Shown here in pieces: positions 37,808 through 40,753 of a stretch of DNA of 40,753 bases. Position 1 is the stretch's first letter. Every line of letters starts with the position of its first letter. This DNA comes from Thoreauomyces humboldtii (lineage: Eukaryota; Chytridiomycota; Chytridiomycetes; Spizellomycetales; Powellomycetaceae). Made by a program: the position numbers and the translations under genes. The notes under the pieces are model-generated. The model was not told the origin of the DNA, did not search any database, and was given only the letters and a program-made list of their open reading frames with translations. The DNA is taken from NCBI GenBank assembly GCA_027596035.1, contig JADGJA010000113.1:1-40753 (forward strand). Direction: 5' to 3'.

Positions 37808-38090
37808 CGCGTGGGTGTTGCCTGTGTGGCGGGATGATGCTCGCGAGGGCCTAAAGTCTTGGAACGGACTATATCCCACCCGAGTGTGCCGAGACCAAGA
37901 CCAGAACCGGACACGTACCGTCCGAGGGTGACGAGTCGTAAAAGTCGCTGTCACAATGGGGTGGCGCAGCACTTCCATGTACTGTACGCTCAGCGTCCAG
38001 GGAACTTCCCCTCTTCCCCCTCCCACATCCTCTGCTCCATTCCCAGAGCACAGTACTGCATCACCGACTACTTCCCATTTTCTACGTTAC

Positions 38091-38170
38091 GATCTACCTT
38101 CCGTTTCGATCTACCTTCCGTTTCGATCTACGTTCCGTTTCGATCTACGTTCCGTTTCGATCTACGTTCC
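38091..38170. repeat. 17-bp minisatellite, about 4.7 copies
   Basis: GATCTAC(C/G)TTCCGTTTC begins at 38091, 38108, 38125, 38142 and 38159. The first two copies have C and the rest G at the eighth base; the last copy is partial and diverged. Confidence 0.92.
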
Positions 38171-38377
38171 ATCACGTACCAGGAACTCACAGTCCGACAA
38201 CCTCCGCAACAACCCTCTCCCGCCCCGTGAGAAACCTACAGTTCCGTCAACGTAAGCTCTCTACACTAGTTCCATCGTCTACCATTTGGTCACCCCCTGC
38301 ATTCTGTGGATCGTACCGACTACTAACTGCTGTTCCCGTCTTGTTACAACCTCTGGCAGTACCGACGACTTCGCCAT

Positions 38378-38442
38378 CTCGACAGCACAGCAGCACAGCA
38401 GCGCGTTAAGAGCGCACAGCAACACAGCAGCACAGCAGCTCC
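38378..38442. repeat. CAGCA-type simple repeat before the transposon ORF
   Basis: CAGCACAGCAGCACAGCAG occurs twice in imperfect form, broken by GCGCGTTAAGAGCGC, which is itself palindromic (GCGCnTTAAnnGCGC). It may be leader sequence or part of the element's left end. Confidence 0.5.
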
Positions 38443-38448
38443 CTCGTC

Positions 38449-38792
38449 ATGAAGCGGCATAAGCGACATCGCTCACCCACCCCGGTACTAGAACTGGAAT
38501 GGTGTCAACAACAACCAAAGTGGCGCGCTGGTGGTTTCATCGATCGTGAAGGAAATCCAGTTCCACCCCCTCGCACTCGCCGAAGAGAAGGTCGCTCTCC
38601 CACCCCTGTACTGGAAGAGAGGATCCTAGCACCACAGCGCCGACCTTCTCCTGGCGCCTCTACGACACCGACACGCTCTCCGGCGCTCCCAACCCCAGAT
38701 GCCTTCTTCAGCTCGACCGCAACGAAGGACGAACTCAGTACATATATTGCGGCGTATCTTCACACAAGCAAGAAGGAGATCTGGATCAACAG
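38449..38792 (+). CDS. Upstream ORF of the IS607-like element, likely 5' exon
   Basis: Starting at ATG 38449, 114 full codons run to AAC AG at 38792, where a donor GTTAGT begins. The protein is basic and Pro/Arg-rich, with the segment RSPTPVLE twice (residues 8-15 and 49-56). Splicing 38793-38854 (62 nt, acceptor AAAAAG) joins it in frame with the frame of the TnpB-like ORF, giving one continuous reading frame to the window edge. No family is recognised. The second half of this ORF overlaps the recombinase-like frame (from 38697), so part of it is probably an out-of-frame reading of old tnpA sequence. Confidence 0.45.
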
Positions 38793-39235
38793 GTTAGTCT
38801 CCTATCTACCACACTGGCAGTGAATCGTTTGGTCCCAACTGATCGGGTAAAAAGATTGCGTACCTTGCTGAAAAGTATCCCGGACGCACAGTTGTCAAAG
38901 ATATCGGTTAGGGAGTGGGCTTCAAGCGCCCCGGTTTTCAGCGTCTGGTCGTCAAACACATCAAATGCCTTGTCGAGGAGATTGTTGTCGCCCACTGGCG
39001 TGATCGCCTTACAAGGCCCGGACTTGACCTTCTCGAACTTGCTTTCAACACATGTCGAGTTAAGCTTGTCTTTGACGCGCAAGACGGGAGCGACGCAGGC
39101 GCTGGCCAGGGCGCTCAAGACGGACTCCAACAGCTGGCTGACAACCTCGAGGCCATCGTCTACGTTTTCTCGTGCCGAGAGCTTGGCAAGAGAAGCCATG
39201 GCCACAAACGTCAGCGAGGCGAAGGAGCGTCTTGC
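38697..39235 (+). pseudogene. IS607-type TnpA serine recombinase, disrupted
   Basis: In the frame of base 38697 the text reads RTQYIYCGVSSHKQEGDLDQ up to CAG 38792. After removing a 62-nt intron (38793-38854) it continues IAYLAEKYPGRTVVKDIG, TAG, GVGFKRPGF, VEEIVVAHWRDRLTR, GLDLLELAF and LADNLEAIVYVFSCRELGKR. These are the blocks of IS607 TnpA serine recombinases: the catalytic Ser in RVSS (TCT at 38757), DIGSG, AHxDRLxR and the final FSxR. Two faults are visible. TAG at 38909 replaces the Ser of DIGSG, and GGC replaces the Arg expected before VSS (YCGVSS). I found no clear MerR-type N-terminal domain in this frame. The frame stays open to 39409 and overlaps the start of the TnpB-like gene, as in bacterial IS607. 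In the element's active form it would cut and rejoin the transposon as a circle. Confidence 0.8.
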
Positions 39236-40753
39236 GTACGGGAATGCCAAAGCGATTGCGACCTGGTACCTCAACAAGCGCCGAGAAGAGGGGGAAAACC
39301 GGAACCTGATGGACCTAACGGCGACAGAAGCTTGGGCATTAAAGAGACAAGAGGACGAACACGTTCGTCAGCAAAGGGAAGAGAGCAAGAAGCGGAAGGC
39401 CGAGAGTGAGGGCGACGATCCCAAAAAGAAGCGACGAAAGTTTCTCAAAGTAGCGGCTGAGGAAAAGGCGCACTGGGAAGCAAAGGCCAAGTGTCGAGCC
39501 GAGGCTAAAGCTCTTGAGGAAGGACTGTCTCCGAACGAACCAGCCGATGAACCTAAAGAGGATCCTGAACAGGCTGATCCTGAGGAGAAGGCGAGCAAGT
39601 CCATGCGCGCTATGGCGTTCAGGCTTTATCCTTCTGAGGCTCTCGCGCAGGGCCTCCGCAAGTGGATTGACATTGCTGATGCTATCGACGCGCACGTTAA
39701 GGACGTCCTGGAGGCGTTCGCAGTCAAGGATGAAAAGGCGAGCTTTCGGTACCTGCGCGACGAACACATCTGTCTGAGTGCGGTGAAGCTTCGAAAGGCA
39801 GAGGCCAATGGAACGCTCGACGAGTTGCGAGACATTGAGAGACGTCGAGCGTACGTGTCTCTTCCTTTTGACGTGCAACAAGCAGTGATCAAGGAAAGCG
39901 TTGCGAACGTCACTGCTAGCCAGACCAATTATGAGAAGGGCAACAATCAGGGCTTTGAGACGCGAAGCCGCAATAGTGCACGCCAATGGAAAACACTCAA
40001 GTTCTTAGCCTCGGGCATGAGCGTCAATCCCAAGACGGGAGAAGTCACAATGTCACCACGGAGCGACTTTGTTGCAAAGGGAGCCGACCGAGGAATGTAC
40101 CTCAAGGATCGCCTGATCGCTTTTCTGTGCCCTGGGCAACGCACGAAAAAGCATACGGCTCGCTCTCCAACGAAACACTGGGGCAACCATTTACAGTGTG
40201 GCAGGAAGAATGGAGGGCGTTCGTTCACGATCAGGCACGACAGTCTCAATCAGAAGTGGTATCTCGTTCTCAGCTATGACGCCAAAGTCAAAGGCGCGCC
40301 GTTGCGAGAGAGTGCCTTTGATGCGGTGATGAAGGACCAGAGTGCATCCGCAAAGCGCGCCAAAACGTGGATCCAGAGACAAGACGACCTGTTTGCTGGT
40401 CCTGCTGCACGAGGAAACATGTGCTCAATCGACCCAGGAGCGCGGACGCCTTGGACCTGCTTCGATGCTCACCGCACGGGTTTCTACGACGTATATCCTG
40501 ATCTGGTGGGAACGCTAGCCAACCATCACAACGACATCGCACGCATCCAATCGGACGGGGCACCTCGGACGCGAAAAGAGGGCACGCGCTACAGAAGAAA
40601 GCGCAGAAAGAAGAAGCGACAAGCCAAAGGAAGCGGTGGTCGGAAGAAAAAGCGCAACTGGCGGTCTTCGTGCCAAAGGAGAGTGACCGACAAGTACGAT
40701 CTGATGAAGGCGATGGTGCGTCAGGCGCACAACTCCTTCGCAAACCATCTTGT
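39198..40753 (+). CDS. TnpB-like RNA-guided nuclease of the Fanzor (Fanzor2/IS607) class, 3' end outside window
   Basis: At least 518 residues from ATG 39198, open to the edge. Residues 1-130 form a charged, helical extension with a PKKKRRK nuclear-signal-like motif (39420-39440). The TnpB N-terminal block follows as RLYPSEALAQGLRKWIDIAD. Then come the WED/REC-like region and MCSIDPGARTPWTCFD, the RuvC-I motif with the catalytic Asp at 40431 (about residue 412). After it come a Lys/Arg-rich insertion (RRKRRKKKRQAKG, GGRKKKRNW) and the helix DKYDLMKAMVRQAHNSFANH, as in IS607 TnpB. RuvC-II (Glu), the zinc finger and RuvC-III lie beyond the window. TnpB and Fanzor proteins cut DNA under guidance of an RNA from the element's end. 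Pairing with tnpA remnants places it with Fanzor2/IS607. With the splice at 38793-38854 the protein could instead start at 38449. Confidence 0.87.
   Translation, partial: MATNVSEAKERLAYGNAKAIATWYLNKRREEGENRNLMDLTATEAWALKRQEDEHVRQQREESKKRKAESEGDDPKKKRRKFLKVAAEEKAHWEAKAKCRAEAKALEEGLSPNEPADEPKEDPEQADPEEKASKSMRAMAFRLYPSEALAQGLRKWIDIADAIDAHVKDVLEAFAVKDEKASFRYLRDEHICLSAVKLRKAEANGTLDELRDIERRRAYVSLPFDVQQAVIKESVANVTASQTNYEKGNNQGFETRSRNSARQWKTLKFLASGMSVNPKTGEVTMSPRSDFVAKGADRGMYLKDRLIAFLCPGQRTKKHTARSPTKHWGNHLQCGRKNGGRSFTIRHDSLNQKWYLVLSYDAKVKGAPLRESAFDAVMKDQSASAKRAKTWIQRQDDLFAGPAARGNMCSIDPGARTPWTCFDAHRTGFYDVYPDLVGTLANHHNDIARIQSDGAPRTRKEGTRYRRKRRKKKRQAKGSGGRKKKRNWRSSCQRRVTDKYDLMKAMVRQAHNSFANHL

Follow-up and report, generated by a model that had tools for sequence, protein, structure and literature searches.

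Has an RNA-guided nuclease in a fungal nuclear genome outlived the recombinase of its own transposon? This question is raised by the right-hand part of contig C17 of Thoreauomyces humboldtii, a chytrid of the Spizellomycetales, where a long TnpB-like frame overlaps an upstream frame of the IS607-type recombinase gene tnpA. The window analysed here is this whole contig of 40,753 bp, and the element runs into the contig end at position 40753. In eukaryotes, TnpB and Cas12 have their counterparts in the Fanzors. A preliminary description had assigned the locus to Fanzor2 in an IS607-like transposon and had placed a guide RNA at the right end, just beyond the window. The results given below make it very probable that the locus is a chytrid IS607-derived element encoding a Fanzor2 RNA-guided DNA endonuclease, with a guide RNA most likely at its right end.

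The Fanzor2 (TnpB-like) coding sequence was placed by its reading frame at 39198..40753 on the forward strand and is cut by the contig end. From the ATG at 39198 the frame runs for 518 codons without a stop, up to the last full codon of the window; when 38801-40753 was shuffled 500 times by mononucleotide, no open forward frame exceeded 206 codons. The TnpB start block RLYPSEALAQGLRKW (39621-39665) and the RuvC-I motif SIDPGARTPWTCFD (from 40425) were both re-found, as was the lack of a stop over more than 1.5 kb on which the preliminary description had relied. A basic PKKKRRK, which we take to be nuclear-signal-like, is present at 39420-39440. RuvC-I reads SIDPG (40425..40439, forward strand), with the DPG that, together with a displaced glutamate (E-alt) upstream of the zinc finger, constitutes the Fanzor fingerprints in the available part of PMC10711439. 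Because the contig stops at 40753, RuvC-II, RuvC-III, the zinc finger and the right end are not visible in this copy. Since the window TnpB protein alone gave no match in Pfam, NCBIfam or the PDB, its identity rests on its paralogues and relatives.

A protein search of the genome returned six rows at five places, namely C17, C800, C52 (in two pieces), C128 and C622. The paralogue in C800 has a 665-aa frame intact to its stop, while C52 carries an internal deletion, C128 is without its 5' half and C622 is a decayed piece with stops. The NCBI protein HKX48_001766 of T. humboldtii was among the homologues of the intact C800 paralogue, and its start corresponds to the C52 sequence. The SIDPG of RuvC-I is also found in C800, C52 and C128. 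In C800 the displaced glutamate is E608, six residues before the zinc-finger C614, and the same motif occurs in C128; a four-cysteine zinc finger followed by the RuvC-III RD is present in both, and the zinc finger of C52 has F in place of the first cysteine. The four-cysteine finger, RuvC-II glutamate and RuvC-III aspartate that had been predicted for a Fanzor2 were all recovered in the C800 paralogue, the glutamate in the displaced Fanzor position, the window copy ending earlier. By profile, the best PDB match of the family was mimivirus Fanzor2 (9.4e-26; next best 1.4e-7), and the same protein (L79, PDB 9b0l) was the top match with Foldseek. The earlier Fanzor2/IS607 reading of the element is supported by these sequence comparisons.

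An identity as Fanzor1 was considered and rejected. A second homology search (alignment A1) added two relatives only, P0017 and P0018, and 44 stretches in IMG/VR fitted a pattern for giant-virus relatives, of which none was confirmed. P0013 and P0017 (Borealophlyctis nickersoniae) belong to a Fanzor2 subfamily whose C-terminal tail is long, and the gene model of P0017 ends in C2H2-like zinc fingers (weak Pfam matches below cut-off). Other Fanzor/TnpB types were seen in the T. humboldtii genome as matches to the RuvC/zinc-finger family PF07282, L009 (G000:C21:27900-28073) in a 192-aa open frame and L010 (G000:C107:15956-16123) with stops present.

The right end could be followed beyond the window in other copies. 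With the 3' region of C800 as query, six places were found: C800 itself, C17 (cut by the contig end), C128, C52, C716 and C445. In the last four, the matching to C800 ends at the identical base, after AGATAGG, so that 5/5 copies have a GG terminus. These right ends, together with the TnpA match described below, bear out the IS607-like character proposed earlier. Conservation of the final ~66 nt extends to C716 and C445, from which most of the coding region is absent; these right-end pieces, L043 and L044, measure ~160 bp and 71 bp respectively, the C445 piece matching C800 without a difference along its 71 bp. Across the five right ends a GAAGAG/CUCUUC stem and a 7-bp hairpin were paired in 65/65 cells, with two compensatory pairs, and a compensatory pair was seen in 0/6 slid controls. 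The conserved hairpin region is likely a guide-RNA scaffold, for which it is our candidate. The pattern is consistent with the right-end RNA (reRNA) described for IS607 TnpB, in which, according to the available text of PMC10711439, the flanking nucleotide is part of the scaffold.

The left-end region was placed at 38004..38448 on the forward strand, with shared sequence starting at 38004-38034 in most copies and at ~37902-37968 in several. It is dispersed, with at least 38 matches to window positions 37950-39250 in the genome. Among the better matches, 19 contigs were tabulated; in 12 of them it lies no more than 60 bp from a contig end, and the copy number is therefore probably underestimated. 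Inside the left end, a 17-bp tandem array holds 5.1 copies of CGTTTCGATCTACGTTC (38085..38170, forward strand), and one to five GATCTAC units were counted in each of eight other copies. As TnpA of the IS607 family binds several subterminal repeats (PMC6188088, available part), this array is a candidate binding region and its units are possible recombinase-binding repeats. The left sides of C52 and C128 contain no inverted copy of the final 6-9 bases of the right end; a 10-bp inverted match in C52 lies off the terminus. The stretch 37845-38003 is shared to differing distances by C438, C772, C66, C468, C30, C728 and C164, for which a second repeat and a variable left boundary are both candidate explanations.

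Several points weigh against an IS607-derived Fanzor2 element with its own guide RNA. The window copy is without all parts after RuvC-I, C800 holds the sole Fanzor2 frame of the genome found intact to its end, and TnpB and Fanzor2 structures are tied by VIA Z. The left outer limit is staggered between copies (window versus 16 loci). At the right end, 16 of 500 shuffles match the covariation, five sequences are few, and the folding energy of the scaffold is barely better than that of shuffles (z −0.96); folding energy alone gives no support, and the guide-RNA claim is based on the covariation together with the sharply defined boundary. The bacterial IS607 gene order might also point to a bacterial contaminant or a prokaryotic TnpB, a reading to which we give next to no probability. 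On the minus strand, the element has as neighbour a gene with one short GT-AG intron readable by eye, presumably 6-phosphofructo-2-kinase/fructose-2,6-bisphosphatase-like from its family motifs, and this gene and the host agree with the fungal nuclear genome assumed from the start. Several copies are dispersed over other contigs, the element itself contains an intron-like gap, and the nearest named relatives come from Geranomyces and Borealophlyctis. On the intron-bearing neighbour, the dispersed copies and the fungal relatives, a bacterial contaminant was ruled out.

For the Fanzor2 element, we infer guide RNA, cleavage and maintenance from established TnpB/Fanzor biochemistry. The right end would be transcribed into a guide RNA, with the hairpin region ending at GG as scaffold and flanking host DNA as guide. 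Fanzor2 would load this RNA and cut the matching element-free site beside a short motif; repair of the cut site would copy the element back, and the nuclease would thereby retain it.

The overlapping upstream frame had been described as an IS607-type tnpA. This assignment stood, with the correction that the frame is broken by a stop codon and split by an intron. Window positions 38915-39409 match NCBIfam NF033518 (transpos_IS607, E=3.4e-9) and the upstream stretch 38550-38792 matches the same profile in the correct order (E=0.0083), both below the curated cut-off; PF00239 was matched by 38855-39196, with TAG read as X, at E=0.0016, also below cut-off. The TnpA catalytic motif YIYCGVSSHKQEGDLDQQ lies in the overlapping frame at 38739..38792 on the forward strand (compare YIYCRVSSCKQQGDLDRQ in the relative P0011). 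A putative spliceosomal-type intron of 62 nt, GTTAGT...AAAAAG, was placed at 38793..38854 (forward strand) by comparison of copies and relatives; its counterparts measure 84 nt in C52 and 71 nt in C800. The spliced TnpA frame reads YIYCGVSSHKQEGDLDQQ followed by IAYLAEKYPGRTVVKDIG and a stop, and the joined DLDQQ and IAYLAEKYPGRTVVKDIG match the uninterrupted DLDRQIAYLSEKYPGRTLVKDIGSG of P0011. The proteins of relatives cross the join without intron residues, P0011 in the TnpA frame and P0005 in a second frame discussed below, and we infer splicing at 38793-38854. In P0011 (metagenomic, with MerR and recombinase start), the open reading frame (ORF) itself seems by eye to read through an intron at residues 124-150 (RVSVI...). 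Its position differs from that of the T. humboldtii intron, which suggests, again by eye, separate intron gains.

The stop is a TAG at the Ser of DIGSG in the TnpA frame (38909..38911, forward strand) and is common to C17, C52 and C800. An intron spanning it was rejected, as the only GT..AG pair there, read by eye, would be 35 nt long and shift the frame. The rest of the tnpA frame (38912..39409, forward strand) overlaps the start of tnpB by 212 nt. A whole-genome search with the TnpA stretch of a relative found three places only, with 2, 1 and 2 TAG codons, and a Pfam resolvase search of the genome gave one sub-threshold match, in C800. No MerR domain, present in P0011, was matched in the two stretches scanned, the TnpA frame 38550-38792 and the ORF 38449-38820; we therefore label the element IS607-derived. 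As read, TnpA is not functional, and with TAG codons in 3/3 places the claim that the nuclease has outlived its recombinase held.

TnpA could still be made through stop readthrough, recoding or a splice form that was not recognised, and the element would then be autonomous. The frame is otherwise long and recognisable and all three copies have the first TAG in common, yet we consider this very unlikely. A second TAG, at the Lys of FKRPG, interrupts the frame in C52 and C800, and 33 bases of the catalytic core are missing from the tnpA of C800. Between YIYC and the nearest stop upstream of it, the TnpA frame of the window offers no ATG, and no MerR match was found. Between C52 and C800 the ratio of nonsynonymous to synonymous substitution rates (dN/dS) of the TnpA frame in exon 2, the part downstream of the intron, is 1.51 (12 substitutions). 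As tnpA is broken in all three assembled copies, the Fanzor2 family would be kept by the nuclease alone or moved in trans by unassembled copies; for recent movement the candidates are movement in trans, movement via unassembled copies, or none.

The tnpA DNA may also encode an N-terminal extension of the nuclease in another frame; like the intron and the mosaic treated below, it goes beyond what the preliminary description had recorded. Exon 1 of this N-terminally extended Fanzor2 frame (ATG 38449; 38449..38792, forward strand) is in frame with TnpB after splicing, and in exon 2 (38855..39197, forward strand), upstream of the TnpB ATG, the extension frame is open and overprinted on the broken TnpA frame. 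By splicing, the ORF 38449-38792 would continue in frame into TnpB in 3/3 copies, that of C800 starting from the contig edge with its start cut off. The upstream exon, if spliced and expressed, would add 229 residues before the nuclease in C17, and the full chytrid protein would reach ~890 aa with the extension. Relatives P0002 and P0005 have the same extended form. Whether the extension is real as coding sequence we judge, from sequence comparison, to be near even. The alternative, that its frame is a by-product of open tnpA sequence, with its similarity left by past selection on TnpA and with ATG 39198 as the Fanzor2 start, falls just short of an even chance.

Synonymous changes in the extension frame of exon 2 exceed expectation between C17 and C52 (26/66 vs 18.9, p 0.0175) and between C17 and C800 (23/50 vs 13.9, p 0.0015), with 6/12 vs 3.2 between C52 and C800 (p 0.06). 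No such excess is seen in the TnpA frame for the same three comparisons (p 0.28, 0.61 and 0.90, and 0.25-0.90 overall), which speaks against a by-product. The dN/dS values in exon 2 are 0.31-0.45 for the extension and 0.63-1.51 for the TnpA frame, compared to 0.18 for the TnpB body. When the exon 2 excess is split at the mosaic breakpoint described below it weakens to p 0.03-0.15, which counts against the extension. So does exon 1 overall, where dN/dS between C17 and C52 is 0.75 in the extension frame vs 0.73 in the TnpA frame and where the final 145 nt show no significant synonymous excess (p 0.09-0.68); comparisons with C800, which cover less sequence, gave 0.20-0.22 for the extension vs 0.92-1.63 for TnpA, on few changes.

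The second TnpA stop of C52 and C800 is synonymous in the extension frame, as the first TAG would be if it derives from TCG, and both are at odds with a by-product. Since the other frame of P0002 and P0005 leaves room for an uninterrupted TnpA, their similarity in the extension could be inherited: in the TnpA-frame score they reach 114/114 and 170/187 (P0002) and 97/114 and 172/187 (P0005), against at most 54/114 and 62/187 for random segments. P0015 and P0016 seemingly have an open frame there too, as judged by eye. The best independent case for the extension is P0017 of Borealophlyctis. Its extension is kept at 46-48% identity over 52-58 aa, about as well as its nuclease body (45%), yet it cannot encode the DIGSG region of TnpA, as the best-case TnpA frame scores 65-67/114 and 88/187 and DIGSG is lost under any codon choice. 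The AF2 model of the extension is of low confidence and uninformative, and among the VIA rows none reaches model residues 1-137, so that they say nothing on the fold of this part. No Pfam domain was found in the extension above cut-off, which again fits a by-product. A SAP-like domain (PF18953) in the exon-1 ORF of the window was discarded; its E-value of 0.011 is below cut-off and it was absent in the scans of P0002, P0005 and P0017.

The window copy appears not to be of one origin throughout. A diverged middle segment (39000..40390, forward strand) is 53-74% identical to C52 and C800 in 150-bp steps, with flanks mostly at 90-100%. Against C52, identity is 82% in the first 120 aligned left-end bases, 90-99% at 38150-38900, 82% in the following step, 55-74% at 39050-40400 and 94-100% beyond; against C800 it is 91-94% in the left part, 53-74% in the middle and 93-96% after. 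The middle of the C17 protein is nearer to Geranomyces P0002 (62-86%) than to C800 (47-72%), and in the last two steps P0002 stands at 83 and 83 vs 94 and 89 for C800. As the second breakpoint falls immediately ahead of RuvC-I, the exchange concerns the REC/WED side, and C17 appears to be a mosaic with its REC/WED half from a diverged lineage. In this layout, the first TAG sits in the part of C17 that belongs to the same lineage as C52 and C800. In Fanzor1 the REC and WED domains read the target motif, according to the available part of PMC11423790, and REC/WED exchange at the RuvC boundary is a possible way to change target-site specificity.

An assembly chimera would mimic such a mosaic, and C17 does end inside a repeat whose left-end sequence is so often found near contig ends; the contig end also truncates one exact match of 77 nt. 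We hold a chimera to be unlikely, since exact shared stretches among the compared copies are short, at most 42 nt near both breakpoints and 77 nt anywhere, and no close copy of the middle type was found elsewhere in the assembly, so that any copy bridging the two types would be one missing from it. Taken together with the mosaic, an N-terminal region of the nuclease born by overprinting through a splice junction and a change of frame, passing from dual coding to a sole frame after the death of the recombinase, with exchange of REC/WED between lineages, is a tentative reading that we place somewhat below even odds.

The left end of the element (window 37811-38022) lies ~100-200 bp upstream of the presumed start of the minus-strand 6-phosphofructo-2-kinase-like gene, and the element may sit in the promoter of this neighbour.

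Among known systems, mimivirus Fanzor2 gave the best PDB match by profile and Foldseek, and the ISvMimi elements carry an IS607-like TnpA as the chytrid element does (PMC3627910, available part). P0002 is 16-19% identical to mimivirus Fanzor2 in structural alignments; the chytrid protein is longer (665 aa, ~890 with the extension) and its tnpA has an intron and stops. The SpuFz structure of Spizellomyces punctatus, a chytrid of the same order as T. humboldtii, ranks 41st by Foldseek. SPu-1/SpuFz1 is likewise a chytrid Fanzor, but a Fanzor1 with terminal inverted repeats in the available text of PMC3627910. In that part of the same source, Bao and Jurka name four yeasts as the only fungal hosts of Fanzor2 (Ashbya, Eremothecium, S. 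cerevisiae EC1118 and Torulaspora), also in nuclear genomes, and the examples of Fanzor2 with TnpA are viral or amoebal, with no fungus among them. Compared to the yeast elements, that of T. humboldtii resides in a chytrid and has retained a recognisable tnpA fossil. Bacterial IS607 shares tnpA before tnpB and, at the right end, the GG with the chytrid element and differs in its prokaryotic host. We know of no intron and no such N-terminal extension in bacterial IS607 or pro-Fanzor TnpBs. Cyanobacterial pro-Fanzor TnpBs have the DPG and the displaced glutamate in common with the chytrid Fanzor2 (PMC10711439, available part). A published fungal IS607-type recombinase is, in the accessible part of its description, under selection and without TnpB, the reverse of the situation in T. 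humboldtii.

No title dealing with a Thoreauomyces Fanzor2 or with a Fanzor extension created by overprinting was found in a search whose coverage excluded most subscription journals and supplementary tables, and the available part of PMC10432273 held nothing on introns or IS607; later surveys may list chytrid Fanzor2 in tables. Fanzor2 in IS607-type elements is already known. What appears to be new is a dead tnpA divided by an intron, a nuclease that may have gained an overprinted extension, and a mosaic of domains. With a nuclease frame that is still intact, a right end of known position carrying a candidate guide scaffold, and a tnpA broken in all assembled copies, the family turns the retention of RNA-guided nucleases in eukaryotes into a testable question. 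If true, the overprinted extension would be an unusual case of new protein sequence arising from the second frame of a transposase, and the mosaic, if true, would suggest that the half of the nuclease that reads the motif can be swapped.

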